From NCBI GenBank assembly GCA_036873755.1, contig JAVTVY010019544.1, forward strand, positions 1 to 64,000: 64,000 nucleotides of DNA, in the 5' to 3' direction. This document shows positions 12,038 through 59,666 of this stretch, piece by piece. Numbering within the stretch: position 1 is the stretch's first letter; each line of letters begins with the position of its first letter. Source of the DNA: Hanleya hanleyi. Its lineage: Eukaryota > Mollusca > Polyplacophora > Lepidopleurida > Hanleyidae. Both the position numbers and the translations under genes were made by a program. The notes beneath the pieces are model-generated. The model saw only the letters and a program-made list of their open reading frames with translations. It did no database searches and had not been told where the DNA came from.

Positions 12038-12075
12038 TCTGTCTGTTACTTGGTGTTATGCTGGATTATTTGCAG

Positions 12076-37113: not shown

Positions 37114-37121
37114 TATAAATA
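37114..37121 (+). promoter_or_regulatory. strong TATA box (TATAAATA)
   Basis: CCCGCTATAAATAGCTCGC, with the first ATG 32 bp after the box. It is the best core promoter match in P1. Confidence 0.55.
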
Positions 37122-37152
37122 GCTCGCACGACACCACTTTTCTTATTCCACG

Positions 37153-37272: not shown

Positions 37273-37384
37273 GGCATTTCAAACCTTTATGGAGACACAT
37301 CTGGAGTCGGGAAATTATCTTCTTCAACCTCCAACATAATGATGTCCGTCCATGGATGATCAAAAATGCATACGGCGTTGGGAT

Positions 37385-37560
37385 AGGCCGTTAAGGTGTT
37401 GAGACGGGCGTTAAAGCGTAAAGACGGGCTTTGACGGGCGTCACTGCATTTCCACGAATTAGTGTCAATTCCATGGAATGTCTAGAAAAATCAGAGCTTC
37501 TGAGCTATTTCATCAGGGCGTTGAGGGGTTGAGTTGGACGTTGGCGGGCGTTACTGTCTA
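37385..37560 (+). repeat. block B, copy in P1
   Basis: GACGGGCGTCACTGCATTTC, GAATTAGTGTCAATTCCATG, AGAGCTTCTGAGCT, CAGGGCGTTGAGG and GGCGTTGGCGGGCGTTAC in order. The same order recurs in P2 and P3 beside each gene cassette. Confidence 0.75.
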
Positions 37561-37610
37561 TTAAAGCAAGCGTATCCCAAAACGTGCACAATTGACATTC
37601 AACTGTCAAC

Positions 37611-38105
37611 ATAGCTTATACATACTCTGAGTGCGAACGCACGTTCACCAGACATTACGATATGATGTAATATCAGAAGAATATACGTGAGATTAAAGAC
37701 ACCTGCTGAGGCGGGTGCTGACACAGAGACTGCTGAGGGTCCACCGACAGATACTAAAACAGAGACTGAGAGTCTGTATACTGATACGGAGAGCTTGAAC
37801 GCAGATAGTCAGCCTACATCCCAGGGAGTGATAAAGAACCTATCTTCTGCATGGGATCGTTTTGTGCATGAAACTATTAATATTCACACTGCGGCGATCG
37901 AAGACGCCGGAAAGGATAACTTACAACAGGCGTACTTCGAAATGCGCCCCTGCATCAGAATGCTCTCCAAGCACAGGTTCATCATGAAGACCAAGCGTCA
38001 TTTGGAAGAGGATATGGGAATATCAACCACCGAGGCCCTGCAAAATGCGACCAAAATGCGCAAAGAGCGCATGTCCAGGACATGTTGACGTTACAGTATT
38101 CTGGC
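37611..38105 (+). pseudogene. zinc-finger gene A, decayed copy in P1
   Basis: Aligns with the intact gene at 44,581. The start codon is ATA (37,611), the first zinc-binding Cys has become Tyr (AYTYSECERTF), and a TAA follows MM in the finger. A long open part remains from 37,687: the TDTE-rich acidic region, then DNLQQAYFEMRPCIR and IMKTKRHLEEDMG. About 20 residues are missing between MRPCIR and the KTKRH motif, and the C-terminus is frameshifted. 3' UTR features survive: GATTGGACAAG and GAATAAACTGTATGAA (polyadenylation signal near 38,263). Confidence 0.8.
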
Positions 38106-38329
38106 GACTTCTGTTTGGACAAGAGCAGCCGAGAATACATCTCACGGGCAAGGACGAATATGACAGATGCAACGCCAAATGGCGTTCTCTGATTGGACAA
38201 GCGCATACTTGAATTGTAAACAAATCCAACGCGGCTTGGGTATGTTGTGACGGAGGTGAGAATAAACTGTATGAACGCTTGTGAACAAGTTGATCTTCCT
38301 TTCTCTCATCTGTCTGTATCATTGCGTCA

Positions 38330-38450
38330 AGGCGTTATGCTAGGGCGTTAAGGCGCCAAGATACAACGTTAAGGCGTTAACATAGGCATTAAGGTGTCCA
38401 GATAGGCGTTAAGGCGTTAACATAGGGGTTAAAGCGTTACTGTAGAACTC
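38330..38450 (+). repeat. array of GGCGTTAAGGCGTTAAC words, downstream of gene A in P1
   Basis: GGCGTTAAGG variants repeat about eight times. This is the outer block B position of P1, but the CTGCATTTC and CAATTCCATG core is missing. Confidence 0.55.
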
Positions 38451-38679
38451 TCCATAAGGTGATAGGGCAAATATACAGGGTTTCTGCTTTCTCTACTACT
38501 AAGGGTCAAATGGACTTTTAATACGCCTTCTCTGCTACCACCCGAGTGCGCAGGCGCATATCGCTCCCGGTTTGACTCTAGTCCACGAGTGCTTGAGTAG
38601 TATACCTCCCACGGCCCATTCGGATCAATATTTAACCATCTCGACATCAACACGTCTACTTCCATACTGTTTTTTCTAC

Positions 38680-38691
38680 TGCGCATGCGCA
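38680..38691. promoter_or_regulatory. NRF1-like palindrome TGCGCATGCGCA
   Basis: Perfect 12-bp palindrome matching the NRF1 consensus. One of many at the same module position in P1, P2 and P3. Binding is not shown. Confidence 0.5.
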
Positions 38692-38700
38692 GATGGGCGG

Positions 38701-39374
38701 CAAAATGAAGCGGGCCTTCTGCCTCGTCGACTTGATGACAAAAGAGATGATTGCAATTTCGACATCGTAAACTATCCCTTTCTGGACTGTAATGTTCCAG
38801 TGGGACCTGCATATGGCGTTTGCATATCTCGCCTAGTAACATTTGCTAGATCCTGTGTTAAATGTGACGATTTTAATCAACGTCACAAAACATTGTTGAA
38901 GAAACTTATAAAACAGGGCTATACCATCAAGCGTCTCCATATCGCATGCTGATAGCAAAATATGAGCGTAGCGTGCAAGATCTATGGCGTTACGTTTCGT
39001 AACTTGTGTCTAATTCCGCTTAAACCGGGGCTAGAGGCCGTATGAACCCATGTACTTCAAAATCCTCATCGTGTTCATATGAACAGTCACAATCAAAGCG
39101 TGACTACATCAATCTCTAGATGGCGACTTTACAACGAATATTATGGATTAAGAATACTGATCAACCATACGGATTTTATATATGTGGAACATCATGATGT
39201 CTTGCCGGCATCATTGAAAACTGTTGACTGCTTCTCTCTTGCAGGAAACTAGCCTATGTTTATGTTTACTTTGATTGTCTTTTTTAATTTGGTGCTAATA
39301 GGTCTTTTGATGATGGACTCGGATATTCTTTAATGCACGTCGGCTGAATTATGAATGACGGACCAGACGCTTGT
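38701..39374 (+). mobile_element. retroelement 3' end, best copy, inserted in P1
   Basis: From about 38,712 to 38,952 the frame reads DDKRDDCNFDIVNYPFLD, then PAYGVCISRL, FARSCVKCDDFNQRH and KLIKQGY. This is a conserved C-terminal segment of a group of animal reverse transcriptases (YDKRDDF..., YGVYISQLIR, KLL.QGY). The frame ends in a TGA at 38,950-38,952. The 3' UTR follows to the tip at 39,374 (CCAGACGCTTGT). The 5' part is missing. It splits the right arm of P1, so it inserted after P1 formed. Exact retroelement clade not determined. Confidence 0.75.
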
Positions 39375-39490
39375 AATTGGACCTCGTATTGAGTAAACTT
39401 TGAGGTCACGTGACCTCCACGACGAGCCCGGATGCAGCACTCAATGCTAGGTCAAATCCACTTTCTATACTACTGGCGTATGTATAGCGG

Positions 39491-41319
39491 GTTGATCGGA
39501 GTCAGATTAACCGGTTGATAATCAACTTATTAACAGGTTAATCCGAGGCATGAACGCCTGAGCACATACAAATCCCGTGGCCAACAGGTTATTCAACAAA
39601 AAGGATAACTCCTGTTAGATAATAGAGCCAGTATATGTAAAGTGCAGAAATCATTCGTGTGCAGCTAATGTAAATCTAAATATTAAAGAATCAAAAACAG
39701 CTTCGCATGTGAAACCTCACATTTAAAGAAAAAAAAAATTGCTTACTTACCTAACAGGGTTCCATCTCATAAATTTTATGCTAAATCGAACAAACTGCGT
39801 CTATATGGGAACTACATGTGTAACGTGTGCAACTCATAAAAATGTTAATATTGTTGCTGGAGGGGAAAATTTGTCATATACATTACATAAATTGTCATTC
39901 GCCCAAGGTGATGGGAGTAAATACTGTAAGTGCGTCGTATTTGTCATCTTCATACACAGGTCGACTTTTCCGGTCACAGTTTGAATTAGCCTTGATAATA
40001 TCATCCCAGATATTCTGTTAGGAAAAAAACATTTAAGCAGAGACCAAGCCTGAATCCAAGCCTGAACCGGTCCGGAAAAGCACAAACCAGTTTGTGTGGG
40101 TAAGTAGGATTTAACTTCGTTTTCAACATTTTTTTCGGCCGTATCACGACGGTGCCTACATGTGCCAGAACACGAGAGTGTCCACAGTTCCTATTATCCA
40201 GGTTGAGTTAATGAATACATAAGCAGTATATATATGCGTCATAGAATAAATTTTATCGGTTTTCCCACTTATTTTTTGCATTACAGTCAGGGATGGATGG
40301 CTCCAGAACACAATATAAGAAAACGTAAATTAAGACGGTGTCTATTTGCTCCAGCCATAACGTGAAGGCGCTGAGTTTGTGATCACGAAAACTATTCTTC
40401 AGTACACAATTGTACAGTTTTGCGGCAAAGCATCAGGCGATATTCGTCGCTTCACTTCGATTCAACATTAGATCGCTAAAGGTAGGTAGTCAAACAGATT
40501 GTCATCTTTGTTCGTGTATCTTACGTTTACAGAAAACAATGGATGGTTGGCAATATTGTTCCATATAAACTGTCTTGGAAATATGGATTTCGTGTTTGGT
40601 TAATGGGTGTTCTTCTTGGTACAAATTATCTAGAAAAATTTATTTTGAGTTGGTATTTTGAGTTGGTAAAAATAATACATCGAAGCTTTACTAAGATCCA
40701 TATATGATAATCACTGGAAAATAAAAAGCTATCACCTTTTTCAAAAACTGACGTAACTATGGCAGTTTTAAGATCAGAAGGAAACGCAACTTCTGCTTTG
40801 GAAATATTAAGCCGATCACACAAGGGTTACGCAAGGTCATTTCCTGTAAGTTTCATGATTTCAGCCTGTAAACGCTCAGACACAACAGATTTCTTTGGTT
40901 TCATATTGTCTTTTGTTTTTACCTATACTTCATGTGATCAATTATAAATCGAAATCATCGTTTACTATTATCTAAATCGTGGAACGTTTGTGTGATCACG
41001 TATATCCGAGGGAGGATGCCAAAGTTTTCTATTCATTCCAGAACATCTACTTGATTTACTTTGCTAATCTGTAATTAGTCTGTTAATCACGAAGTGATTT
41101 CAGTAAGGATATCATTATGTACATATATCAAAGTTTCGTTGATCGAGATTAAACCAGATCTGTTCCTCACGAGATGTTTATCAGTGTTACTCGGCAGTAG
41201 TAGGGGAAGCGTATTTAAAGCCACATTGGTCTCACTGCGGAAATGCACAGGTCTGTGTGCGCAGGTCACGTGGTTTGGTGGGGTGGTATGCACAAGTGTG
41301 TGACGTCACCTTCGCGGTT
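39491..41319. other. no recognisable feature
   Basis: AT-rich sequence between P1 and P2. No gene, RNA or repeat recognised. Confidence 0.4.
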
Positions 41320-41924
41320 TCGTATTCCTTCGCAGTGATGCGGTCTGGCGGTGATGCGGTCGCGGGAACAAGCTTCCGCGGACAAAAAGTAGACATGAGG
41401 CTTCAAATACGCGGGCCGTTGCTTTTCGCCTGATTCACCTATAATGTCACATTCGGGTAAAAAGGTCAAAGGTCACATCCAGGTCAAAAGGTCAAAGGTC
41501 ACTTCCGGTCAAGTGACGGACCAGCAGTAAGGCTAAGATCACAGTGACTCTCCAATGTGAATCTCCCGAAACCTGGTCCCCGACAATATTGCCATCTATT
41601 TGCCCATGTTAAATGGCCAGTGCGGAACCCTCAGTGTCCCCATACAGGTTTCCCCAGAACCGTATTGGCACGAAAAAAATACATGAAACCATGGGAAGGA
41701 AGACGTGTAGTAATAAACATAATCTATAGGTGTTGTACCATATTATTATGACCAGAATATCTCCGCAAAAAAAAAAAAAAAAATGGGGGCCCCGCTTCCT
41801 GTGGGGTTCCCCTTTCGACATCACGGCATCGATCGTTCTGCCCTCTAGAAGCCAGGACAACTCTGACTGGGCGAACCCTCTGTGGCGCAAAATTCCGGGT
41901 GATCTCCCCTCATTCGCACATTTG
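41320..41924 (+). repeat. outer left fragment of P2, then unrelated sequence
   Basis: GTGATGCGGTCTGGCGGTGA and AAGCTTCCGCGGACAAAAAG at 41,335-41,395 match P3 at 47,600-47,665, so the P2 element once reached at least here. AGGTCAAAGGTCAC words follow near 41,465-41,500, like those in the P3 core. From 41,520 no homology is seen; an A17 run lies at 41,766. Confidence 0.6.
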
Positions 41925-42387
41925 CATCTATACGGGAAATACCTTTATGGGGTATAGGGTGGTCATTTTTTGTGGATTTTACTATGGGTTGTGGGGTCTT
42001 GTTTTCTTTGTCTCACCACGTAAAACACGATGGGAAGGGTCTCTGAGCTAAGCGGTGAAATTTTTCGAAAAGTTCACGGAGGTCTGCATAGGCCCATATG
42101 TCTACTGGTTCAGTGGATAGGTCATTACTTGGCAATTCACACATGTTCATTGCGGTATGGTTTGTGGGATCTTGTTTTTCACGTCTCGCCACATAGAGCA
42201 CGATGGGTCGGGTCCCGGAGGTAAGCGATGATTTTTTTTGAAAAAGTCACTGTGCGCATGCGTTGTGGGTAAATAGCGCTGGGTGGACATTTTGGGGGCG
42301 AGAGGTGCCCCTAGTGGACCGATTGGGTCGAGTGAGGTGTCAAAGTCAAGCGCCCCTCCAGGGCGATCAAGTCATAGGCGAAGGTAA

Positions 42388-42915
42388 AATTAGGATTTGT
42401 CCCGAAGATATAAAAAGCGGAACACGGACTTTACCCCTAGAATAGGGGAAAACTCGTATCAACCCGGTCTAGAAGGGCTAATATCGGTCCCCCGCTTATC
42501 GGGGCCTGCCGACAGAGGTAGGGTGGGGGAGTGGGTGTAAGTAAATTGAGGATCTGTCCCGAAAATATAATAAGCGGAACACGGACTTTATCCGTACGAT
42601 AGGAGAAACTCCCTATCAACCATGTCCAAAAGGGCTAATATCGGTCTCCGCCTTATCAGGGCCTGCTGATAGAGGTAGGGTGGGATGACGGATGCATGTA
42701 AAATTAGGATTTGTCCCGAAAATATAAAAAGCGGAACATGGACTTTACTCCTACAATAGGGGAAAACTCCTATTAACAAGGTCTAGAGGGTCTAATGTCG
42801 GTCCCCGGTTTATCGGGGCCTGTCGACAGAGCCAGGGTAGGGGAGTGGTTGTATGTAAAGTTAGGATTTGTCGCGAAAATATAAAAAAGCGGAACATGGA
42901 CTTTACATCTAAACC
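42388..42915 (+). repeat. tandem 156-bp units, each with a TATA-like box (left arm of P2)
   Basis: TATAAAAAGCGGAACACGGA or close variants start at 42,409, 42,565, 42,723 and 42,880, so the period is 156-158 bp. Each unit ends with GGGGCCTGCCGACAGAG.TAGGG. The boxes point towards the centre of P2. P3 has a single degenerate unit near 47,905-47,945. Confidence 0.75.
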
Positions 42916-43129
42916 ATGGAGAATCATGGCTATTTTGGGTCCAAAATGGTCCAAATGAACTCCCAGATTGAGCGAGTGAGTGCGTGAGTGAGCGAGTGAC
43001 TGAGTGAGTGAGTGGTCATATAAGGTCGTTTAGGAGTAGTACCCAAAGTGGACATTTTGGGGTTGTGAAGAAAGGTGTTTGGGGTAGGAATGGACCATAC
43101 TTGGTGCGAATGCGTCGTGTGAATTGGCA

Positions 43130-43292
43130 TCTTGTAGCAACGCCCGCCAACGCCAAGCTCAACGCTTCAACGCCCTGGTGAATTAGCACAAAAGCTCTGA
43201 TTTTCATGGAATTGTCACTAATTCATTGGAAATGCAGTGACGCCTGTCAACGCCCGTCGTTACGCCTAACGCCCAGCATAACGCCTTGACGC
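43130..43292 (-). repeat. block B, outer left copy in P2
   Basis: Reverse orientation relative to the P1 copy: CAACGCCCTGGTGAATTAGC, TTCATGGAATTGTCACTAAT, AAATGCAGTGACGCC, then ACGCC words. Confidence 0.75.
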
Positions 43293-43555
43293 CATGATAT
43301 AGACCGGAGAGAGAACAGCAACAACAACAAGGATGACAGATGAGAGAACAACAACAACAAGTTTTCATATAGTTTATTCTCCCCAAAGTTACATCATACC
43401 CACGCTGGGGGAGCCGCGTTGGATATGTTTACAATTCAAGAAGACTCCTGTCCGAACAGAGGCCGCCATTTGGCGCTGCATCTGTCATATTCTCGGCTGC
43501 ACTTGTCCAATCAGAAGCCGTCTTTTGAGAAAGTTCCATCTTTGCTCGGTGTGAC

Positions 43556-44122
43556 CTAAGCATCGTCGGACAGTTCAGGATACTGTTCGGGCAGCATGTC
43601 CCGAAAGCATTGTTTGCGCATCCTGATCGCATTTTGCAGGGACTCGGTGGGTGGTAGCCCCATATCCTCTTCCAAGTGACGCTTGGTCTTCATGATGGAC
43701 CTGTGCGCGGGGTTGCGCTTTCATTTCAAGCGGTAGTAATGTATACTGTTCATAGATCGCCATGGCTGTTTTCTTGATGCAGGGGCGCATTTGGGTGTAT
43801 GCCTGTTGTAAGTTATCCTGTCTGGCGTCCACGATCGCTGCAGCGTGATTATCGATAGCTGCTCTCACAATACGATCCTAAAAGGTAGGTTCTTTCTCAC
43901 TTTCCTCGGACGTAGGCTGACTATCTGGGGTCATGCTCTCCTTATCACTAGATAGACTCTCAGCAATCTCTGTTTCGGTTTATCAGTGGATGAACTCTCA
44001 TCGGTCTCTGCTTCGGCTTCTTGTGCCTCGGAGTCTTCAATCCCATGTATATTTTTCTCGTGTCGCATCATATTGTAACATCTGGTGAACGTACGTTCGC
44101 ACATGGAGCAAGTATAAGCTAT
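43556..44122 (-). pseudogene. zinc-finger gene A, dead copy in left arm of P2
   Basis: Mirror of 44,581-45,180. The start codon is ATA (44,120-44,122) in an otherwise conserved GTCAACATAGC context. The finger CSMCERTF and MMRHEKNIHG is intact. The acidic region is frameshifted after SSTD, and the C-terminal part, open from about 43,868 (DNLQQAYTQMRPCIKK), shifts again after LEMKAQPR. The final codons (MLPEQYPELSDDA, stop) are still readable near 43,556. A good TATA box (TATAAAAG, 44,168-44,175) remains, so it may still be transcribed. Confidence 0.8.
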
Positions 44123-44167
44123 GTTGACGGTTGAACGTTGACTGTGCCTGTTTTGGGAATACACTTG

Positions 44168-44175
44168 CTTTTATA
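44168..44175 (-). promoter_or_regulatory. TATA box of the left gene A copy
   Basis: TCTATAAAAGCAAGTGTAT lies 46 bp before the former start. The same phrase appears in P1 (TCTATTAAAGCAAGCGTAT at 37,556) and with changes in the right copy (CTATAATGTACAGG..GCAAGTGTAT). Confidence 0.6.
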
Positions 44176-44179
44176 GACA

Positions 44180-44375
44180 GTAACGCCCGTCAACGCTTAG
44201 CTCAACGCTTCAAAGCCCTGGTGAACTAGGTCAGCAGCTCTGATTTTCATGGAATTGCGACCAATACATCAAAATGCAGTGAAGCCCGTCAGCGCTCGTC
44301 GTTACGCTTTAACGCCCGTCTCAACGCCTTAACGCCCTATCTTTACGCCTTAACGCCCGTCTCAGCGCCTTAACG
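44180..44375 (-). repeat. block B, central copy of P2
   Basis: Single, unmirrored copy between the two gene A promoters. It is followed by repeats of CGCCTTAACGCCCGTCT. Its presence at the centre makes P2 asymmetrical there. Confidence 0.7.
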
Positions 44376-44427
44376 AGCGATAAAGAGGATTTGGCGGACG
44401 ATTGTCTTTTGACCCCTGCGGACACCC

Positions 44428-44463
44428 ATACCTGCTGCACCCGCACCCTGGTGTACCCTATGC
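44428..44463. repeat. remnant of the P3-type core in the centre of P2
   Basis: TGCTGCACCCGCACCCTGGT followed by GTACC is shared with P3 at 50,758-50,783, where it is part of the mirrored core. P2 keeps one side only. Confidence 0.65.
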
Positions 44464-44472
44464 CCTACGGGC

Positions 44473-44480
44473 TATAATGT
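44473..44480 (+). promoter_or_regulatory. TATA-like box of intact gene A
   Basis: GGGCTATAATGTACAGG lies about 100 bp before the ATG. Compared with the left copy, the 5' leader has gained about 45 bp. Confidence 0.4.
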
Positions 44481-44580
44481 ACAGGTATTGCAAGTGTATA
44501 CCCAGAACGCGCACAGTCGTTGTCAGTATGTCGGCACCTCTTCCCACTACCCTTATATGTGTTGTAATTCAGCCGTCAAC

Positions 44581-45180
44581 ATGGCTTATACTTGCTCTAA
44601 GTGCGAACGCACGTTCATCAGACGTTACAATATGATGCGTCACGAGGAAAATATACATGGGATTGAAGACTCTGAGGCACACGAAGATGATACAGAGACT
44701 GATGAGAGTCCATCGACTGATACCGAAACAAAGACTGCTGAGAGTCTATCGACTGATACCGAAAGAGAAATTGCTGAGAGTCTATCTAGTGATACGGAGA
44801 GCTCGACCTCAGATAGTCAGCCTACGTCCGAGGAAAATGAGAAAGAACCTACCTTCTGGAATCGTATTTTGAAAGCATCTATCAATACTCACGCTGCAGC
44901 GTTCGAGGAGGCCGGACAGGATAACTTACAACAGGCATACACCTATATGCGCCCCTGCATCAGGAAAACAGCCATGGCGATCTATGAAGAGTACACCTTA
45001 CTACGGCTTGAAATGAAAGGCGACCCCACGCACAGGTCCATCATGAAGACCAAGCGTCACTTGGAATATGATATGGGGCTACTACCCACCGAGGATCTGG
45101 CAAATGTGATCAAGATGCGCAAACAACTCTTTCAGGACATGCTGCCCGAACAATATCTTGAACTGCCCTACGATGCATAG
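44581..45180 (+). CDS. zinc-finger gene A: one-finger C2H2 protein with acidic linker, 199 aa
   Basis: The start is the ATG in GTCAACATGGCT (strong Kozak); the frame extends 31 codons upstream without homology to the other copies. Residues 5-26 form one C2H2 finger (CSKCERTF...MMRHEENIH, C-x2-C-x12-H-x4-H). Residues about 28-95 are an acidic, repetitive TDTE/AESLSTD region. The rest is a helical domain with DNLQQAYTYMRPCIRK, IMKTKRHLEYDMG and a C-terminal DMLPEQYLELPYDA. The family is not recognised. A single finger plus acidic stretch suggests DNA or protein binding, by inference only. It is the only undamaged copy among P1-P3. Its 3' UTR holds two copies of an ATTGGACAAGAGC segment. Confidence 0.75.
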   Translation: MAYTCSKCERTFIRRYNMMRHEENIHGIEDSEAHEDDTETDESPSTDTETKTAESLSTDTEREIAESLSSDTESSTSDSQPTSEENEKEPTFWNRILKASINTHAAAFEEAGQDNLQQAYTYMRPCIRKTAMAIYEEYTLLRLEMKGDPTHRSIMKTKRHLEYDMGLLPTEDLANVIKMRKQLFQDMLPEQYLELPYDA

Positions 45181-45317
45181 GTCACACCGAGCAAAGATGG
45201 AGCTTTCTCAAAGGACGGCTTCTGATTGGACAAGAGCAGTCGAGAATATGACGGATGCAGCGCCAAATGGCGGCCTCTGATCGGACAAGAGCCTTCTTGA
45301 ATTGCAAACATTCTGCG
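45181..45317 (+). other. 3' UTR of gene A with direct repeats
   Basis: GATTGGACAAGAGCAG and GATCGGACAAGAGCCT, each near GACGGATGC.GCGCCAAATGGCGG. The AATAAACTATATGAA signal kept by P1 and P3 at this place is missing here. Confidence 0.5.
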
Positions 45318-45480
45318 CATAGGCGTTATGCTAGGGCGTTAAGGCGTAACGACGGGCGTTGACGGGCGTCACTGCATTTCCAATGAATTAGTGACAATTC
45401 CATGAAAATCAAAGCTTTTGGGCTAATGCACCAAGGCGTTGAAGGGTTGAGCTTGGCGTTCGTGAGCGTTGCTACAAGAT
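45318..45480 (+). repeat. block B, outer right copy in P2
   Basis: GGCGTTATGCTAGGGCGTTA, GACGGGCGTCACTGCATTTC, TTAGTGACAATTCCATG, AAGGCGTTGAAGGGTTGAGC. Mirror partner of 43,130-43,292. Confidence 0.75.
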
Positions 45481-45737
45481 GCCACTTCACACGACGCATT
45501 CGGACCAAGGATGGCCCATTTTTACCCCAAACACCTTCCTTCACACTTCCAAAATGTCCACTTTGGCTACTACTCCTAAACGACCTTATATGACCACTCA
45601 CTCACTCATTCACTCACTCCCTCATTCACTCTCTCGCTCACTCACTCACTCACCCACTCACTCACTCACCCACTCACTCAGGGAGCTCATTTGAGCCATT
45701 TTGCCCCAAAATTGCCATGATTCTCCATGGTTTAGGT

Positions 45738-46256
45738 GTAAAGTCCGTGTTCCGCTTTTTTATATCTTCGAGACAAATCCTCAATTTACATAAACCGAAT
45801 TCCCTACCCTGCCTCTGTCGGCAGGCCCCGATTAGCCGGGCACCGATATTAGACCCTCTAGACCTGGTTGATTAGAGTTTTCCCCTATTGTAGGGGTAAA
45901 GCCCGTGTTCCGACTTTTATATTTTTGGGACAAATCCTAATTTTACATGCACGCTTTATCCCACTCTACCTCCCTCAGCAGGCCCCCATAAGCCGGAGAC
46001 CGATATTAGCCCTTTGGATATGGTTGATAGTTTTCCCCTATTGTAAGGTTAAAGTCCGTGTCCCGATTTTTACATTTTTGGGACAAATCCTCAATTTACA
46101 TACACCCACTCCCCCGCCCTACCTCTGTCGGCAGGCCCCGATAAGCTGGGGACCGATATTAGCCCTCTAGACCTGGTTAATAGGAGTTTCCCCCTATTTT
46201 GCGGGTAAAGTCCGTGTTCCGCTTTTTATGTTTTCGGGACAAATCCTAATTTTACA
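45738..46256 (-). repeat. tandem TATA-unit array (right arm of P2)
   Basis: Mirror of 42,388-42,915. Four units with CCGCTTTTTATATC-like boxes near 45,752, 45,910, 46,062 and 46,220, more diverged than on the left (for example TTTTTACATTTTTGGG). Confidence 0.7.
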
Positions 46257-46682
46257 TCCACCCATCCATGACTTGATCGCCCTGGAAGATCGCTTCACTT
46301 TGACACCTCACTCCATCCAATCGGTCCATTAGGGGTTCCTCTCGCCTCAAAAATGTTCATCCAATGCTATTTACCTACAACGCATGCGCACAGTGACTTT
46401 TTTCAAACTATTTCATCGCTTAACTTCGGGACCCCACCCATCGTGATCTACGTGGTGAGACGTGAAAACCAAGATCCCACAACCCAGGCCGCAATGAACA
46501 TGTGTGAATAATCAAGTAATGACCTATCAGCTGAGCCAGTAGGCCTATTATATGGGCCTATGCTCCGCGAACTTTTCGGAAAATTTCACCGCTTAGCTCC
46601 GAGATCCTTCCCATCGTGTTTTTCGTGGTGAGACAAAGTAAACAAGACCCCACAACCCATAGTAAAATTAAAAAAAACGGTC

Positions 46683-46907
46683 AAATTACCATGGTGTTTT
46701 CACGATCAAATTACCATGGTGTTTTGACGGCGAAATTACCATGGTGTTTTCAGGGTCAAATTACCATGGTGTTTTGACGGCGAAACTACCATGGTGTTTT
46801 GATGGCGAAATTACCATGGTGTTTTCACGGTCAAATTATCATGGTGTTTTGACGGCGAAATTACCATGGTGTTTTCACGGTCAAGTTACCATGATATTTT
46901 GACGATG
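46683..46907 (+). repeat. 25-bp minisatellite, 9 copies, two alternating forms
   Basis: AAATTACCATGGTGTTTT followed by either CACGGTC or GACGGCG, roughly alternating, so the true higher-order period is about 50 bp. It begins directly where the P2 right arm ends. Confidence 0.85.
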
Positions 46908-47434: not shown

Positions 47435-47440
47435 TCCCTC
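47435..47440 (+). repeat. target-site duplication of P3, left (TCCCTC)
   Basis: TCCCTC directly before AGTAGTATATAAAACACC; the same six bases follow the mirrored end at 54,685-54,690. Confidence 0.65.
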
Positions 47441-47904
47441 AGTAGTATATAAAACACCGATTCCCTTAGCATTTATGCAAATGAGATGACGTTACGTGAC
47501 TGACCTTTCCCACCTCCAACACAGAAGAGTTCCAATCTAGGGGGAGGTAACTCTGGGTCACTATAGTTCCGGCAAAGGGTCCCTGGGCATGTATTCTTCC
47601 GCGGTGGTGCGGTCTGGCGGTGATGCGGTCGCCGAAGAAAGCTTCCGCGGAGAAAAAGTAGTCCCTAGATTTGAAATACGCTGCATGGTCCGATTGGGTC
47701 GAGTGAGGTATCAAAGTGAAGCATTCGTGAAGGGGCATCGGATGGGCTGGGTGTGAGATTGAGATATCGGCATTCTGCGCATGCGCGGTGGCCGAAGGGT
47801 ATGAAAATAGACATTTTGGAGCTAGGGGAGCCCCTAATGGGCTGATGGGGTTGTATGAGGTATGAAAGTGAAGTATATTTCAAGCATGGGTGGGTGCATG
47901 TAAA

Positions 47905-48400
47905 ATTTTTCCTGAAAAAATACGGAGCACGGACTTTATCCTAAATTACGGGAAAATGCCTATATGGGGTATACTTCTATACATTTGCGGTATGGTTGTT
48001 TGGATTTGTTTTCTTAGTCTCGTCAAGACAAACATGATAGGAAGTGTCGCGGAGCGAATCGGTGAAATTTTTGAAAAAGGTCACCGAGACCCATATAGAC
48101 CCATATAGGCCCATACTAGGGGTATAGGACCAATGTTTGTCCCACTGGGAAGCCTACTTCTAGACATTTGCGGTATGGTTGTTTGGATTTGTTTTCTTAG
48201 TCTCGTCAAGACAAACATGATAGGTGTCGCGGAGCGAATCGGTGAAATATTTGAAAAAGTACCATACAGCCCATATAGACCCATATAGTCCCATACTAGG
48301 GGTATAGGACCAATGTTTGTCCCACTGGGAAACCTACTTCTAGACATTTGCGGTATGGTTGTTTGGATTTGTTTTCCGGCAAGAAACGGTGAAATTTTTG
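47905..48400 (+). repeat. single TATA-unit plus three tandem 180-bp units (left arm of P3)
   Basis: ACATTTGCGGTATGGTTGTT recurs near 47,983, 48,163 and 48,343, with GTCTCGTCAAGACAAACATG and GGAGCGAATCGGTGAAAT between. The first unit follows GAGCACGGACTTTATCC, the relic of a P2-type unit. Confidence 0.75.
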
Positions 48401-48593
48401 GAAAAAGTCACCGAGGCCTGGGTAGGCCCATAGGCCTATACTGCATGGCTATGTGGTATAGGTCCATACCGGGTGGACGTGTTGGGGTCTAGGTGAGCCA
48501 CTAATGGTCCAATGGTGTCGTATGAGGTATCAATGTGAAGCTCTCATGCAGGAGCACTTGACTACACTAATGGTTCGTACGTTATCAATAGTC

Positions 48594-48605
48594 TGCGCAT
48601 GCGCA
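48594..48605. promoter_or_regulatory. NRF1-like palindrome in P3 left arm
   Basis: TGCGCATGCGCA, followed by GTCTGGCCGTAGTATAGAAA and CATTTTGGGGG. Its mirror is at 53,294-53,305. Confidence 0.5.
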
Positions 48606-48767
48606 GTCTGGCCGTAGTATAGAAAGCAGGCATTTTGGGGGTATGTGGGTGTGTTTGGGGTAGAGATGGGCTATTCACGGTTCGAATGGGTCGTGGAAGG
48701 TGTCAAAGTGATGCTTGTGTGGGTTAGAGTCCGAATGGTGTGGTTTTAAAAGCAAGTCGTGTCAATC

Positions 48768-48779
48768 TGCGCATGCGCA
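48768..48779. promoter_or_regulatory. NRF1-like palindrome in P3 left arm, second module
   Basis: TGCGCATGCGCA followed by GTTGGTTGTAGTAAGTAAAG and CATTTTGGGG. Its mirror is at 53,121-53,132. The next module inward has paired GTGACGTCATTGGTGACGTC (about 48,930-48,950) in place of the NRF1 word. Confidence 0.5.
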
Positions 48780-49059
48780 GTTGGTTGTAGTAAGTAAAGT
48801 GGACATTTTGGGGCAGTGAAGGTATTTGGTGTAGAGAGGGACCATCCTTGGTCCGAATGCGTCGTGTGAGGTGTCATTTTGTAGCTCTTGGGGTGTAGAC
48901 TCCGATTTGAGGGATGTTCACGTCATCTGTGACGTCATTGGTGACGTCATCAATACGAGTAGTAGCCAAAGTGGACATTTTGGGGCAGTGAAAGGAAGGT
49001 ATTTGGTGTAGAGAGGGACCATCCTTGGTCCGAATGCGTCGTATGAGGTGTCATATTGT

Positions 49060-49228
49060 AGCAACGCCCGCCAACACCAAGCTTAACGCTTCAACGCCCT
49101 GGTGAAATAGCTCAGAAGTTCTGATTTTCTAGATATACCATGGAATTGACACCAATTCATCGAAATGCAGTGACGCCCGTCAACGCCCGTCGTTACGCCT
49201 TAACGCTCTAACATAACGCCTTGACGCA
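49060..49228 (-). repeat. block B, outer left copy in P3
   Basis: CAACGCCCTGGTGAAATAGC, CATGGAATTGACACCAATTC, AAATGCAGTGACGCCCG. Carries the ATTTTCTAGATATACCATGG variant also seen in P1. Mirror partner of 52,672-52,843. Confidence 0.75.
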
Positions 49229-49518
49229 ATGATATAGATTGGAGAGAGAACAACAACAACAACAACACGGATGACACATGAGAGAACAACAACAACAAGA
49301 AGTTTTTTCATATAGTTTATTTTCCCCAATGTTACATCATACCCACGCTGGGGGAGCCGCGTTGGGTAAGAAAAACTCAAGAAAACTCTTGTCCAATCAG
49401 AGCCCACCATTTGCATCTGTCATATTCGTTCCTGTCCGTTAGATGTATTCTTGTCCAATCAGAAGTCGCCATTTCAGAAAGTTCCATCTTCGGCCATGTT
49501 CGCTCTGAACCGTTTATT

Positions 49519-49578
49519 CTAATCATCGTCGGACAGGCCTGGATATTCTTCGGGCAGCAGGTCCTGAAACAGTTGTTT
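49519..49578 (-). pseudogene. last 20 codons of gene A left behind in P3, left copy
   Basis: Reads KQLFQDLLPEEYPGLSDDD and stop on the minus strand, matching the C-terminus of gene A. Sequence upstream jumps straight into block B. The gene A 3' UTR follows outward, with the AATAAACTATATGAA signal near 49,312-49,327 and an AAC microsatellite at 49,248. Confidence 0.8.
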
Positions 49579-49935
49579 GATAACGCCCGTCAACGCTTAC
49601 CTTAACGCTTCAACGCCCTGGTGAACTAGCTCAGAAGCTCTGATTTTCATGGAATTGTCACTAATTCATTGGAAATGCACTAACGCCCGTCGTTACGCCT
49701 TAACACCCGTCACAACGCCCGTCAACGCCCGTCGTTACTTCTTAACGCCCGTCTCAATGCCCGTCAACGCCCGTTGTGACGGCTTAACGCCCGTTTCAAC
49801 AACCGTCAACGCCCAGCTTACCGCTTCAACGCCCTGGTGAACTAGCTCAGAAGCTCTGATTTTCATGGAATTGCCACCAATCCATCGAAATGCAGTGACG
49901 GGCGCTGACGCCTTAACACACTTTCTTAACGCTTT
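49579..49935 (-). repeat. block B, two inner left copies in P3
   Basis: Two tandem block B units (GGTGAACTAGCTCAGAAGCT near 49,620 and 49,839) separated by ACGCCCGTCAACGCCCGTCG words. They join the gene A remnant to gene B. Confidence 0.75.
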
Positions 49936-50011
49936 AACGTCGTTATCGTTCAGTATAACCTAAACGTCTTCGGGCAATCCATGATACTGAAGCTCGAAGC
50001 TCTTACTTCGC

Positions 50012-50302
50012 TCATTCAACACTGAGATCAATCTCCATTGGCTCTTCAATCCGCGGCGAATCGACCTCCATGGGTTCTTCTATTCTCAGATGCATTCCGA
50101 TAGAAACTGAAATATCCGGTCTCGAGAGTGGCGAGCGTGATCCGTGTATGACATTTCGGTGACGACTCAATTGACTGGGATGCTTAAAGGCTATATCACA
50201 ATCCGCACATGTATGCTTGGGTACTTCGTGGCTTGCACTTGTGTGACAACGCAAACTGTCCAGGCGATGAAAGCGCTTCGAGCAAGTTGTGCAAGAGAAC
50301 AA
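50012..50302 (-). CDS. zinc-finger gene B: two-finger C2H2 protein, better copy (left arm of P3)
   Basis: Two C2H2 fingers: FSCTTCSKRF..LRCHTSASH and HTCADCDIAF..LSRHRNVIH, both C-x2-C-x12-H-x4-H. The tail repeats an acidic motif, EEPMEVDSPR and EEPMEIDLSVE, before the stop at 50,012-50,014. No in-frame ATG precedes finger 1. The frame is open back past a TATAAGAG box (50,351-50,358), so translation would need a spliced leader exon (an acceptor-like ATTTCCAG precedes finger 1) or a non-ATG start; the limit given is a TTG. It is not related to gene A beyond the finger fold. Function unknown; nucleic acid binding is likely from the fingers. Confidence 0.55.
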   Translation of the reverse strand: MFSCTTCSKRFHRLDSLRCHTSASHEVPKHTCADCDIAFKHPSQLSRHRNVIHGSRSPLSRPDISVSIGMHLRIEEPMEVDSPRIEEPMEIDLSVE

Positions 50303-50364
50303 ATCGGCTGTGGATCTGGAAATGATGAATGCCGTAAAACTTTCGGCTCTTATAGACCAACATA

Positions 50365-50470
50365 GGAGTACCCGGATGTTCTACAGTCAGGGATGTACAA
50401 GAACCCGGATGTACCCGGATGTAAAAGTCCAGGACGTAAAAGTGCCCGGATGTTCACGAATGTACTACCG
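50365..50470. repeat. ACCCGGATGT short tandem repeats upstream of gene B
   Basis: ACCCGGATGT and close variants repeat about five times with AAAAGTCC or AAAAGTGC. Mirrored at about 51,545-51,640. Confidence 0.65.
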
Positions 50471-50554
50471 TCGCGGACTTCTATCAGGCCCAGGACCAGA
50501 TCAAAGGATGGATACAGACTGAGGCTAATGGTGTACACCACCAACTCCACTGCC

Positions 50555-50655
50555 ACACACCACCACCAACGCCACCACCAACGCCACCACCGCCACCTCC
50601 GCCACCACCGGCCGTTGACGGGCGTCAACGCCCCGTGGTGGTGGTGGTGGTGGTA
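50555..50655. repeat. CCACCA/GGTGGT microsatellites around a block-B-like palindrome
   Basis: (CCACCR)n runs into CGTTGACGGGCGTCAACGCC, then (GTGGTG)n. The mirror at 51,335-51,440 has the same order with different repeat numbers. Long open frames here are repeat translations. Confidence 0.7.
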
Positions 50656-50659
50656 GCCC

Positions 50660-51320
50660 CCGTGTGGCAGAGCTCATGGATCGGAGCTCTCGGAACTCAA
50701 AGCTGGCGGAGCTCAGAGCTCGGAAATGACGTCATCGCAGGCATGCGCGTGTACCTGTGCTGCACCCGCACCCTGGTGTACCTAAGTGTGTATGTGTGTG
50801 CTTGCGAGTGTGTTTCTTGGATCGGAGCTCTTGGAGCTCAAAGCCTGTGGAGCTCAGAGCACGGAAGTGACATTTGCATATGACCTCTGTGAGGTCACTT
50901 ATGCTTCCGTTCACGTGACCGGAACTGACCTTTGACACCGGCGCGCAAAGGTTTTCACCGCGGTGGAAAACTTTACACCGCGCGCGCTGGGGTCAAAGGA
51001 CCGGAACTGACCTTTGACCCCGGCGCGCAAAGGTTTCACCGCGCGCGCTGGGGTCAAAGGTCAGTTCCGGTCACGTGAACGGAAGCGGAAGTGACCTCAC
51101 AGAGGTCATATGCAAATGTCACTTCCGAGCTCTGAGCTCCACAGGCTTTGAGCTCCGATCCAAGAAACACACTCGCAAGCACACACATACACACTTAGGT
51201 ACACCAGGGTGCGGGTGCAGCACAGGTACACGCGCATGCCTGCGATGACGTCATTTCCGAGCTCTGAGCTCCGCAAGCTTTGAGCTCCGAGAGCTCCGAT
51301 CCAAGAGCTCTGCCGCACGG
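50660..51320. repeat. symmetric core of P3
   Basis: Mirrored phrases: GATCGGAGCTC, ATGACGTCATCGCAGGCATG, TGCACCCGCACCCTGGTGTA, TGTGTGCTTGCGAGTGTGTT, GGAAGTGACATTTGCATATG. The innermost part (50,915-51,085) holds two tandem sub-palindromes of about 70 bp with CACGTGACCGGAACTGACC, GGCGCGCAAAGG, ACCGCGGT and GGGGTCAAAGG. It has CpG-rich words, an E-box (CACGTG) and nuclear-receptor half-sites. Nothing in it encodes a protein. Confidence 0.75.
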
Positions 51321-51649
51321 GGGCTATCACCACCACCACCACCATCGGGCGTTGACGCCCGTCAACGCCCAATGGTGGCGTTGGTGGCGGCGTTGGTGGC
51401 GTTGGTGGTGGCGTTGGTGGTGGCGTTGGTGTGTGAGGGTGGTGTTGGTGGAGTTGGTGGTGTACACCATTAGCCTCAGTCTGTATCCATCCTTTGATCT
51501 GGACCTGAGCCTGGGCCTGATAGAAGTCCGGGATGGTAGTACATTCGTGAACATCCGGGCACTTTTACATCCTGGACTTTTACATCCGGGTACATCCGGG
51601 TTCTTGTACATCCCTGACTGCAGAACATCCGGGTACTCCTATGTTGGTC

Positions 51650-51657
51650 TATAAGAG
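51650..51657 (+). promoter_or_regulatory. TATA box before the right gene B copy
   Basis: GGTCTATAAGAGCCGAC; mirrored before the left copy at 50,351-50,358. Confidence 0.45.
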
Positions 51658-51701
51658 CCGACAGTTTTACGGCATTCATCATTTCCAGATCCACAGCCGA
51701 T

Positions 51702-51983
51702 TTGTTCTCTTGCACAGCTTGCTCGAAGCGCTTTCATCGCCTGGACAGTCTGCGTTGTCAAACACGTGCAAGCCACGAAGTACCCATGCATACATGTGCG
51801 GATTGTGATATAGCCTTTAAGCATCCCAGTCGTCACGGAAATGTCATACACGGATCACGCTCGCTACTCTCGAGACCGGATATTTCAGTTTCTATCGGAA
51901 TGCATCTGAGAATAGAAGAACCCATGGAGGTCGATTCGCCGCGGATTGAAGAGCCGATGGAGATTGATCTCAGTGTTGAATGA
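51702..51983 (+). pseudogene. zinc-finger gene B, damaged copy (right arm of P3)
   Basis: Mirror of 50,012-50,302. In finger 1 the first zinc-binding His has become Gln (LRCQTRASH). In finger 2 a 9-bp deletion removes QLS (KHPSRHGNVIH), breaking the C-x12-H spacing. The frame stays open to the same stop (51,981-51,983) and the acidic tail is unchanged. Only one arm therefore carries a plausible protein. Confidence 0.7.
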
Positions 51984-52054
51984 GCGAAGTAAGAGCTTCG
52001 AGCTTCAGTATCATGGATTGCCCGAAGACGTTTAGGTTATACTGAACGATAACG

Positions 52055-52317
52055 ACGCTAGTTCACCAGGGCGTTGAAGCGTTAAGCTGGGTGTTGACGG
52101 TGGTTGAAACGGGCGTTAAGCCGTAACGACGGGCGTTGACGGGCATGGAGACGGGCGTTAAGGCGTAACAACGGGCGTTGACGGGCGTTGTGACGGGCGT
52201 TAAGGCGTAACGACGGTGCATTTCCAATGAATTAGTGACAATTCCATGAAAATCAGAGCTTCTGAGCTAGTTCACCAGGGCGTTGAAGCGTTAAGGTAAG
52301 CATTGACGGGCGTTATC
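52055..52317 (+). repeat. block B, inner right copies in P3
   Basis: Mirror of 49,579-49,935 but about 95 bp shorter: one of the two CTGCATTTC cores is lost. GTTGACGGGCGTTGTGACGG words are clear. Confidence 0.7.
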
Positions 52318-52377
52318 AAACAACTGTTGCAGGACATGCTGCCCGAAGAATATCCAGGCCTGTCCGACGATGATTAG
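52318..52377 (+). pseudogene. last 20 codons of gene A left behind in P3, right copy
   Basis: KQLLQDMLPEEYPGLSDDD then TAG. Followed by the gene A 3' UTR (GATTGGACAAGAATAC, GATTGGACAAGAGTTT, AATAAACTATATGAA near 52,577) and (TTG)n. Confidence 0.8.
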
Positions 52378-52671
52378 AATAAACGGTTTAGAGCGAACAT
52401 GGCCGAAGATGGAACTTTCTGAAATGGCGACTTCTGATTGGACAAGAATACATCTAACGGACAGGAACGAATATGACAGATGCAAATGGTGGGCTCTGAT
52501 TGGACAAGAGTTTTCTTGAGTTGTAAACATACCCAACGCGGCTCCCCCAGCGTGGGTATGATGCAACATTGGGGAAAATAAACTATATGAAAAAACTTCT
52601 TGTTGTTGTTGTTCTCTCATGTGTCATCCTCGTTGTTGTTGTTGTTGTTGTTCTCTCTCCGGTCTATATCA

Positions 52672-52843
52672 TGGCGTCAAGGCGTTATGTTAGAGCGTTA
52701 AGGCGTAACGACGGGCATTGACGGGCGTCACTGCATTTCGATGAATTGGTGTCAATTCCATGGAATATCTAGAAAATCACAACTTCTGAGCTACTTCACC
52801 AGGGCGTTGAAGCGTTAAGCTTGGCGTTGGCGGGCGTTGCTAC
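52672..52843 (+). repeat. block B, outer right copy in P3
   Basis: Mirror partner of 49,060-49,228, nearly identical, including AATATCTAGAAAATCACAAC. Confidence 0.75.
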
Positions 52844-53529
52844 AATATGACACTTCATACGACGCATTCGGACCAAGGATGGTCACTCTCTACACCAAAT
52901 ACCTTCCTTTCACTGCCCCAAAATGTCCACTTTGGCTACTACTCGTATTGATGACGTCACCAATGACGTCACAGATGACGTGAACATCCCTCAAATCGGG
53001 GTCTACACCCCAAGAGCTACAAAATGACACCTCACACGACGCATTCGGACCAGGGATGGTCCCTCTCTACACTAAATACCTTCCTGCCCCAAAATGTCCA
53101 CTTTACTTACTACAACCAACTGCGCATGCGCAGATTGACGCGACTTGCCTTTAAAACCACACCATTCTGACTAACCCACACAAGCTTCACTTTGACACGT
53201 TCCACGACCCATTCGATCCGTGAATAGCCCATCTCTACCCGAAACACACCCACATACCCCCCAAAATGCCTGCTTTCTATACTACGGCCAGACTGCGCAT
53301 GCGCAGACTATTGATAACGTACGAACCATTAGTGTAGTCAAGTGCTCCTGCATGAGAGCTTCACATTGATACCTCATACGACACCATTGGACCATTAGTG
53401 GCTCACCTAGACCCCAACACGTCCACCCGGTATGGACCTATATCCCATAGCCATGCAGTATAGGCCTATGGGCCTACCCAGGCCTCGGTGACTTTTTCCA
53501 AAAATTTCACCGATTCGTGCCGGGACACT

Positions 53530-54175
53530 TCCTATCATGTTTGTCTTGACGAGACTAAGAAAACAAATCCAAACAACCATACCGCAAATGTCTAGAAGTA
53601 GGTTTCCCAGTGGGACAAACATTGGTCCTATACCCCCAGTATGGGACTATATGGATCTATATGGGCTGTATGGTACTTTTTCAAAAATTTCACCGATTCG
53701 CTCCGCGACACTTCCTATCATGTTTGTCTTGACGAGACTAAGAAAACAAATCCAAACAACCATACCGCAAATGTCTAGAAGTAGGTTTCCCAGTGGGACA
53801 AACATTGGTCCTATACCCCTAGTATGGGACTATATGGGTCAATATGGGCTGTATGGTACTTTTTTCAAAAATTTCACCGATTCGCTCCGCGACACTTCCT
53901 ATCATGTTTGTCTTGACGAGACTAAGAAAACAAATCCAAACAACCATACCGCAAATGTCTAGAAGTAGGTTTCCCAGTGGGGCAAACATTGGTCCTATAC
54001 CCCTAGTATGGGACTACATGGGTCTCCCTGAACTTTTTCCTCAAATTTCAACGATTCGCTCCGCGACACTTCCTATCATGTTTGTCTTGACGAGACTAAG
54101 AAAACAAATCCAAACAACCATACGGCAAATGTATAGAAGTAGGTTTCCCCGTGGGACAAACATTGGTCCTATACC
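53530..54175 (-). repeat. four tandem 180-bp units (right arm of P3)
   Basis: CAACCATACCGCAAATGTCT-like words recur near 53,572, 53,756, 53,940 and 54,114. The left arm has three units, so the arms differ by one. The unit is near 183 bp, divisible by three, which keeps one frame open across units without any sign of selection. Confidence 0.75.
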
Positions 54176-54684
54176 CCCCCCCCATACCCGATATAGGCAT
54201 TTTCCCGTAATTTAGGATAAAGTCCGTGTTCCGTATTTTTTCAGGAAAAATTTTACATGCACCCACCCATACTTGAAATATACTTCACTTTGATACCTCA
54301 TACAACTCCATCAGCCCATTAGGGGCTCCCCTAGCTCCAAAACGTCTATTTTCATACCCTTCGGCCACCGCGCATGCGCAGAATGCCGATATCTCAATCT
54401 CACACCCAGCCCATCAGATGCCCCTTCACGAATGCTTCACTTTCATACCTCACTCGACCCAATCGGACCATGCAGCGTATTTCAAGTCTAGGGACTACTT
54501 TTTCACCGCCAGACCGCATCACCGCGGAAGAATACATGCCCATGGGCCCTTTGCCGGAACTATAGTGACCCAGAGTTACCTCCCCCTAGATTGGAACTCT
54601 TCTGTGTTGGAGGTGGGAAAGGTCAGTCACGTGACGTCATCTCATTTGCATAAATGCTAAGGAATCGGTGTTTTATATACTACT

Positions 54685-54690
54685 TCCCTC
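54685..54690 (+). repeat. target-site duplication of P3, right (TCCCTC)
   Basis: Directly follows the terminal TATATACTACT. See 47,435-47,440. Confidence 0.65.
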
Positions 54691-57495: not shown

Positions 57496-58602
57496 CTGAA
57501 GGCTGACCCCGACGAGTGATTGCGGGCCATTGTGTGGCTGCGAGATATCAGCATTTTCTCTGGATTGGAATAAAGACACCAGTCACTCTGCGGTGAAAGA
57601 AATTGTCATGTCTGATCAAACGGCAACCGGGAAAACCAAGAATTACCTCCAGTATCTTTAATACATGTGTTTTTAAATATGACAAAGCTTTTAGACCAAC
57701 GGTTTCGTCGTTCCGAAAAAGAGAGTGTCAGAGAGAGGCAAAATCCAGCCTTCTCCCATGCCTGGTGCATGTTCATGTGTAGGTTCAGAGTCGGGTCAGA
57801 CATTTCAATGCGGTTTTGTCCAAACTTGTATCGTAACAGAAAGCTTTGGTAGCGTATTCAGTTATCCTGATCATATAAACATGCTACTGTGTGTGTCATG
57901 CACGCACAATTCCATTCAATACAACATATGCAACACGAACACTGGATTGTGCTCAGTAGAGTAATGAGGGGGAGAGAATGTACTCCGAAAGCACATGTAA
58001 ACGACTTTTTTTGTCATGAAACCACTTCCATTTATACAATAATATCCATTTTCTTTTCCCAAATATAATTTTCAGCGTTATACATCTAAGCCATAACCAG
58101 AATATAATTGGTGTAAAATGATTTGGGTAGTGCTGAACCATTTAGAATAGGTGATAAATCAGTTTACTTCAATAAAATGTCTAACGTACTGCATTCACAT
58201 ATTTTAAAGAACCTTGGTCCGCCTCTACCACCTCCCCCCACCGCCCAACCCATGCACTCATCATCACCCTGTCACCCCTGAACAAACCAAGGGCCTCTTT
58301 CAAGATCAACTCCCTATAAGGGCAAGATGCCTTTTTATCTTTTCTCCTTTTTCGTTCAACCCAGTAAACTCGCAAGTTTCCCGACAGAGTACGGTACCAT
58401 GACCTCTCCACAAAAGGATGATCGTTTAATGGTGGCAGATAGGCTAACATATGTTATATTATGTAAATATATATATTCCATTTTTATGCAGATGTGAATG
58501 TTGCGTGTTGCAACTGAACACTTCACGAAATGTCTTTGTTGAGAGAACGGTGGATGAAATGTAAATAAGCCTAAATCATTCTGGAAAAATCCCTAATTAT
58601 CT
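57496..58602. other. no recognisable feature
   Basis: A few open frames under 90 codons, none with a recognisable domain. Confidence 0.4.
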
Positions 58603-59094
58603 TGGGAGAAAATCTAAATTAATCAGTACCGGTAGGTGAGATTTGGGAGAAAATATAAATTAATCAGTACCGGGAGGTGAGATTTGGGAGAAAATATAAA
58701 TTAATCAGTACCGGTAGGTGAGATTTGGGAGAAAATATATATTAATCAGTACCGGTAGGTGAGATTTGTGAGAAAATATAAATTAATCAGTACCGGTAGG
58801 TGAGATTTGTGAGAAAATATAAATTAATCAGTACCGGTAGGGGAGATTTGTGAGAAAATATAAATTAATCAGTACCGGTAGGTGAGATTTGTGAGAAAAT
58901 ATCAATTAATCAGTACCTGTAGGTGAGATTTGGGAGAAAATATAAATTAATCAGTACCGGTAGGTGAGATTTGGGAGAAAATATCAATTAATCAGTACCT
59001 GTAGGTGAGATTTGGGAGAAAATATAAATTAATCAGTACCGGTAGGTGAGATTTGGGAGAAAATATAAATTAATCAGTACCGGTAGGTGAGATT
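58603..59094 (+). repeat. 41-bp minisatellite, 12 copies
   Basis: Unit GGGAGAAAATATAAATTAAT plus CAGTACCGGTAGGTGAGATTT. Two copies with ATATCAATTAATCAGTACCTG (8th and 10th) mark a duplicated sub-block. Units are contiguous, without spacers. Confidence 0.9.
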
Positions 59095-59666
59095 TCAAGG
59101 TAGTATAATCTTTCTTGTTCTTTTTGTCATTCATTCTGTCAGTCATTGTGCTGTCCACCCAGCGTCTAGTTCAGATTTAAGTATAGGTTCAATTAATTCC
59201 CATGCGTAAGCTTATACCATAACATGTTAGAAATAGAAATATTAGCTCTAATGAGCTATTGATGGTCTTTTTTAACTCGAGTCCCAGTGTAGCAGAAACG
59301 GTGGTCCCTCAGATATAAGTTTTCGTTTCCTATGCTTTAATCCCAGCCAGGACACGGACATCTGAAAAGGGTCACTTGGATATCAGAGCCCACCCTAGGT
59401 AAAACACCGGACACTGGTCTCTGGGGACCACCGTTTCTATCATACCGGGTCTAAAGACTATTTCACACCCCTTTAGAGTATGCTTGATGCAATTCAAATC
59501 GCTCAACCTATAAATTATCTCTAGGCTACATATGTTTGGAAGGGCGATGATTCTGTGAGTGAGCGTGAACGTGATGTGAACGTCTTATTATTCGGGTTCA
59601 TGCCAAGCCGATAATGCTTTAATAATTGAACAGACTTTTTGAGAAAAAAATAATCTTTCTAATAAC
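59095..59666. other. non-coding with a small inverted-repeat element at 59,294-59,438
   Basis: AGAAACGGTGGTCCC at 59,294 and its exact complement at 59,424-59,438 bracket a 145-bp unit that looks like a very small MITE. Nothing else recognised. Confidence 0.5.

Follow-up and report, generated by a model that had tools for sequence, protein, structure and literature searches.

In vertebrates, the two ends of Maverick/Polinton elements most commonly carry AGT and ACT, respectively, each as two tandem units, and intact elements are flanked by 6-bp target duplications and carry inverted terminal repeats of hundreds of base pairs (PMC8097293). A duplication of 6 bp is typical of rve integrases (PMC12220804). 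An element with ends of this type, hereafter P3, is found in a window of 64,000 nucleotides that comprises positions 1–64,000 of contig JAVTVY010019544.1 from the Hanleya hanleyi assembly GCA_036873755.1 (2.48 Gb; 52,793 contigs). P3 occupies 7.2 kb (47,441–54,684), reads nearly the same on both strands, and is most likely a non-autonomous, fully palindromic Maverick/Polinton derivative with an integrase supplied in trans. This reading is based on its Maverick-type ends and 6-bp duplication, on further insertions that share these ends, and on same-ended elements with integrase-, polymerase-, or capsid-type genes. For its spread, P3 probably uses machinery provided by complete Mavericks of this genome.

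P3 shares with Mavericks the (AGT)2...(ACT)2 ends, the inverted terminal repeats, and the 6-bp duplication, and same-ended elements of this genome contain integrase and polymerase frames; its ends and the enzymes of those elements belong to the known superfamily. However, P3 is much shorter than intact vertebrate elements, which measure 12.7–24.6 kb (PMC8097293), it is mirrored over its full length, and it lacks Maverick enzyme genes in the seven open frames scanned, where only zinc fingers were recognised and neither a protein-primed DNA polymerase B nor an rve integrase, capsid protein, packaging ATPase, or protease was found. Thus, it is classified as a derivative and not as a full Maverick. 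A first-pass annotation of the window had proposed that the organisation belongs to no described family, which was not supported. The ends and the duplication length are those of Maverick/Polinton, whereas no description of the layout itself, a fully palindromic gene-bearing Maverick derivative, was found in the accessible literature, including the available portions of PMC6431247, PMC2836005, and PMC8504770, with Repbase, a possible home of non-autonomous Polintons, outside the scope.

The terminus AGTAGTATATAAAACACCGA starts at 47,441 and its reverse complement ends at 54,684, the two ends read AGTAGT...ACTACT, and TCCCTC abuts P3 on both sides as an exact 6-bp target duplication. These ends and this duplication had been given in the first-pass annotation and were borne out, as was a near-complete mirror; the axis, which had been placed at 50,990, was recomputed to ~50,994.5. 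The arms listed below follow from the mirror alignment and the computed axis.

47435–47440, no strand: left copy of the target duplication TCCCTC, directly outside the P3 end.
47441–50994, plus strand: P3 left arm.
50995–54684, minus strand: P3 right arm, the mirror of the left arm.
47441–47452, plus strand: Maverick-type terminus AGTAGTATATAA, with its complement at 54673–54684 (motif according to PMC8097293).
47453–47471, plus strand: variable end tag; the counterpart, 54655–54672, is shorter by one base.
54621–54654, minus strand: conserved 34-base subterminal motif; the left copy, 47472–47505, has one mismatch.
47972–48376, plus strand: left-arm tandem repeats with a 180-bp unit; the right-arm counterpart spans 53491–54177.
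50015–50380, minus strand: open frame with two C2H2 zinc fingers in the left arm (zf-C2H2, E 4.2e-6).
51618–51980, plus strand: mirror copy of the zinc-finger frame in the right arm, with damaged fingers (zf-C2H2, E 0.0095).
50862–51120, no strand: central inverted-repeat module, also present at the centre of other family palindromes.
54685–54690, no strand: right copy of the target duplication TCCCTC, directly outside the P3 end.

With up to three mismatches allowed, the terminal 20-mer of P3 occurs at three sites in the window (the third at 1,391) and at none in 100 shuffles. When the 18 AGTAGT and 12 ACTACT sites of the window were combined at spacings of 300–40,000 bases, only the P3 pair had flanking hexamers within one mismatch of each other. 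By a loose measure, which counts inverted matches near the axis, P3 contains no unmirrored stretch longer than 60 bp. Aligned against each other, the two halves show 104 substitutions (3.1%) alongside 3,231 matches, with gaps in a further 574 columns, and the mirror is, therefore, near-complete and not exact. Substitution divergence between the arms ranges from 2.2% to 4.6% per 500 bp, without a trend towards the axis; the final 122 bp of the half contain no substitutions but 122 gapped columns. The right flank of P3 has no second copy in the genome: the first ~710 bases of the query match only themselves, and the remaining matches correspond to a repeat farther out.

A genome search with the first 600 bp of P3 yielded 82 matched pieces from the best 40 of 7,311 candidates, and 20 stretches, representing 19 loci beyond P3, were read for comparison. 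All 19 contain at least one P3-type end. Both ends lie within the stretch in P3 and ten other copies, and in seven of these 11 (P3, C30529, C52319, C7946, C14416, C6683, and C16448) the 6-bp duplication is exact, while that of C18672 has one mismatch. C30529 and C14416 represent one insertion on two contigs and, counted by insertion, exact duplications amount to six of ten. In a control with swapped flank pairs, none of 110 came within one mismatch. Moreover, the 34-base subterminal motif has 256 exact copies in the genome, compared with none for a reversed control, and among the first 100 of these sites facing pairs less than 20 kb apart occur on at least nine contigs (C2952, C9984, C10716, C11178, C11271, C14389, C15454, C16321, and C16448). 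The proposal of the first-pass annotation that P3 moved as a unit was upheld by these duplications, and the comparisons in which other copies might have shown different end points or no duplication were, where run, favourable to it.

Three contig pairs (C30529/C14416, C47470/C42183, and C14567/C32051) have flank and tag in common, and each is read as the two haplotypes of one insertion. Family members on C47158, C32051, and C37555 sit at contig ends. The right end on C37555 is followed by AACGTA and the left end on C47158 is preceded by AACGTA; perhaps, these are one insertion split by the assembly. In C14567, the P3-type left end occurs three times in direct orientation, at intervals of 2,856 bp and each time after TCCCGT; a tandem triplication and an assembly fault are the candidate explanations.

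The members of the family are palindromic to different extents. By the same loose measure, the mirror covers all of P3 and C18672 (the latter in a single alignment at 95.6%), and the mirrored share is 99% in C47470, 95% in C44904, 80% in C6683, 72% in C16448, 71% in C4703, 62% in C52319, 60% in both C30529 and C14416, and 31% in C7946; P3, C18672, C47470, and C44904 thus rank as full or nearly full palindromes, and the others have inverted arms of 0.4–2.5 kb flanking a core. The centre of P3 recurs at the centres of C18672, C32051, C42183, C47470, and C44904. In C16448, a short inverted repeat of the centre module is next to a 121-bp piece from the distal end of the zinc-finger gene, which has the mirror orientation, and this copy is read as a palindrome that lost one inner arm.

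Two relatives of P3 lie in the same window.

41196–46677, no strand: P2, an older related palindrome with arms 14.6% apart and the right outer part missing.
44581–45177, plus strand: P2 gene for a 199-residue C2H2 protein with one finger; a broken mirror copy lies at 43578–44170.
~35600–39474, no strand: P1, a decayed relative of P3 with uncertain limits.

The axis of P2 differs from that of P3, and the centre module of P3 was not found in P2. A 25-bp tandem repeat (46677–46904) begins exactly where the mirrored part of the P2 right arm stops. In addition, a Maverick-type end, AGTAGTATATAAGACACTGA, is present at 1,391, with a candidate right end at 4,698 whose flank is two mismatches off; the limits of this putative element are not established.

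In a tree of 430-bp ends with 20 rows, the two ends of an element are each other's closest relatives in seven of the nine elements that have both, with support of 98/91 for P3, 100/99 for C6683, 97/92 for C18672, 97/96 for C7946, 96/88 for C16448, 93/93 for C52319, and 88/84 for C4703; the remaining two are C30529 and C14416, which represent one insertion and have mixed rows. In a tree of zinc-finger genes, the resolved arm pairs are those of P2 (100/99) and C18672 (88/85). The ATPase block gives a star, except for the left arms of C14567 and C32051, which pair at 100/99, as expected if arms diverge separately after insertion (left arms being compared). The claim that whole arms were copied relies on the divergence between the P3 arms, which is even from end to axis.

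The 18-base tags next to the termini differ at 46% of places among 16 copies, 15 of which have different tags, whereas the adjacent 60 bp of subterminal sequence differ by 1.5% between copies. Within a single element, the two tags match or nearly match in nine of the ten copies with both: five pairs are identical and four have one or two changes (one inserted base in P3), while those of C44904 are unlike in the inner half. Tags that vary between copies and yet match within an element suggest that the ends undergo a step of recognition or copying, and the candidate explanations are a recognition sequence that fits a helper and remodelling at the start of copying. The idea that copies with unlike tags are recombinants was dropped, since the tags of C4703, which lacks a duplication, differ at 2 of 24 places, the same as those of C6683, in which a duplication is present.

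Genes of Maverick type are found in elements with the same ends. C11271 measures 15.9 kb from 34-mer to 34-mer and contains a 370-residue integrase frame near one end (rve, 3e-10; chromo, 9e-7) and a 500-residue frame near the other (DNA_pol_B_2, E 5.9e-5). Together with the P3 frames, in which only zinc fingers are recognised, these two frames support the earlier suggestion that the enzyme mobilising P3 was supplied elsewhere. Matches to DNA_pol_B_2 number at least 164 in the genome (best 84 of 1,723 candidates), and none of the 30 such loci cut out has a P3-type end in its 1.5-kb flanks. C7946 seems to carry remnants of a Maverick integrase, whose end includes a chromodomain (E 1.1e-6), and of an ATPase, a capsid protein, and a protease. 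The frame of the putative capsid protein has 185 homologs. Searches with capsid sequences against solved structures gave nothing useful and, thus, a predicted structure was compared instead: the model of homolog P0121 (mean predicted local distance difference test, pLDDT, 83.5) matches capsid proteins of grouper iridovirus, Sputnik, PBCV-1, and mavirus, and, among predicted viral structures, those of adomavirus and adintovirus. Viral contigs searched with the capsid protein, the ATPase, and the capsid alignment yielded no confirmed relative. An exact 18-mer of the terminus occurs in one viral contig with phage-like genes, which was taken as chance.

C44904 and C47470 have a zinc-finger ATPase of packaging type in each arm, broken in places. 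This protein has 472 homologs at E ≤ 0.01 and, when the query was aligned with 13 selected homologs, 13 of the 14 sequences matched Pox_A32 and five of 14 matched Adeno_IVa2. Many of the searched copies match the gene for the 199-residue protein of P2 along most of its extent, but P3 retains only 56 bp of this gene per arm. The P2 protein has no homolog at E ≤ 0.01; it matches the tail of the ATPase at E 0.001, and reading it as the ATPase gene minus the ATPase domain is weakly supported. The zinc-finger protein of P3 itself shows no significant match to the family ATPase (E 0.056). Homologs of proteins from the window and the family are named in corals, an anemone, and a snail.

Protein-primed copying would start at the AGTAGT ends, and the displaced strand would fold at the central inverted repeat and copy itself, so that both arms would be copies of one arm made before insertion; this copying step as a whole is moderately favoured. 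Such snap-back copying predicts that the arms were identical at insertion. The integrase of a same-ended Maverick of the C11271 type would join the linear P3 copy to its target in trans, and this integration would generate the TCCCTC duplication. After insertion, the arms would drift apart separately, and many copies would lose sequence around the centre.

Several observations weigh against P3 being a palindromic Maverick derivative served in trans. C4703, C44904, and C47470 lack the 6-bp duplication; the right end of C47470 is short by ~61 bp and that of C44904 is without its outermost bases, and these truncations may explain two of the three cases. The DNA_pol_B_2 match of C11271 scores 22.6 bits against a Pfam cut-off of 25.8, and the extent of this element is known between its 34-mers, inside its outermost ends and flanks. 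In C7946, the ATPase frame (Pox_A32, E 0.0076) and the protease frame (Peptidase_C5, E 0.049) remain below the cut-off, and the 273-residue capsid frame has no Pfam match. Moreover, the ends of C7946 pair although this element is not palindromic, so that pairing shows copying of ends and not of whole arms, and the trees of inner gene blocks are too star-like for a test of arm pairing.

Alternatively, the palindrome could be of chromosomal origin rather than a product of element replication: two copies may have inserted in opposite orientations, or recombination or repair may have generated it. The closeness of P1, P2, and P3 in the window is in line with such an origin, and the different axis of P2 implies more than one change in the palindromes or in their centres. 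However, a single duplication surrounds the whole of P3, the divergence of its arms is similar from end to axis, and palindromes at several loci share the same centre module and have matching end tags, all of which make a chromosomal origin unlikely. That the mirror is an assembly join is more improbable still: long palindromes are hard to assemble, and C47158, C32051, and C37555 do sit at contig ends, but the P3 arms are 3.1% substitutions and many gaps apart, the duplication is exact on both sides, and C47470 and C42183, which have flank and tag in common, both show mirrored inner arms.

Galileo elements produce 7-bp duplications and use a P-type transposase. It is very unlikely that P3 is a member of a cut-and-paste family like Foldback/Galileo, in which the inverted arms are long and repetitive. 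Its long arms with internal tandem repeats do resemble those of Galileo (PMC3573991), whereas its ends, the genes in its arms, and the integrase/polymerase elements with the same ends point to Mavericks, and the duplications of P3 and the other exact copies are of 6 bp instead of 7 bp.

The window also contains features unrelated to P3. A 727-residue open frame (11985–14168) combines an nSTAND3 NTPase with ankyrin repeats, and a 509-residue frame (30313–31842) matches DUF3504 above the cut-off and phage integrase below it, and is presumably Crypton-like. An 18-bp unit forms inverted and tandem arrays coding for Ser/Arg-rich frames (6939–9467), and a minisatellite with 12 copies of a 41-bp unit, at 96% matches, is located at 58602–59095.

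If P3 is a palindromic Maverick derivative, P3-like palindromes would make up a class of Mavericks that are defective or satellites, would add to the sources of long palindromes that hamper assembly, and would turn help in trans into a testable question. Protein-primed copying of Mavericks has so far been inferred from genes, and palindromes in chromosomes with ends that match within each element would be both a trace and a clock of this process in animal DNA. Symmetric or panhandle defective molecules of adenovirus provide a precedent for the fold-back of a displaced strand. Panhandle intermediates and long inverted repeats are also mentioned for a linear plasmid (PMC1864894). The likeness to these protein-primed replicons is that a displaced strand that folds back gives rise to a molecule with two good ends; the difference is that in the present case symmetric molecules sit in chromosomes, as insertions at several loci with target duplications. 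As for virophages and phage satellites, the likeness would be a possible reliance on a helper for replication and packaging. Speculatively, palindromic Mavericks could be a satellite lineage of their own, with symmetric two-origin genomes whose arms are made equal again in each protein-primed round and with arms that each encode a zinc-finger packaging ATPase, or a zinc-finger protein that lacks the ATPase, to steer or block packaging by a helper whose tags must be matched. Among Mavericks, such a lineage would correspond to virophages and phage satellites.

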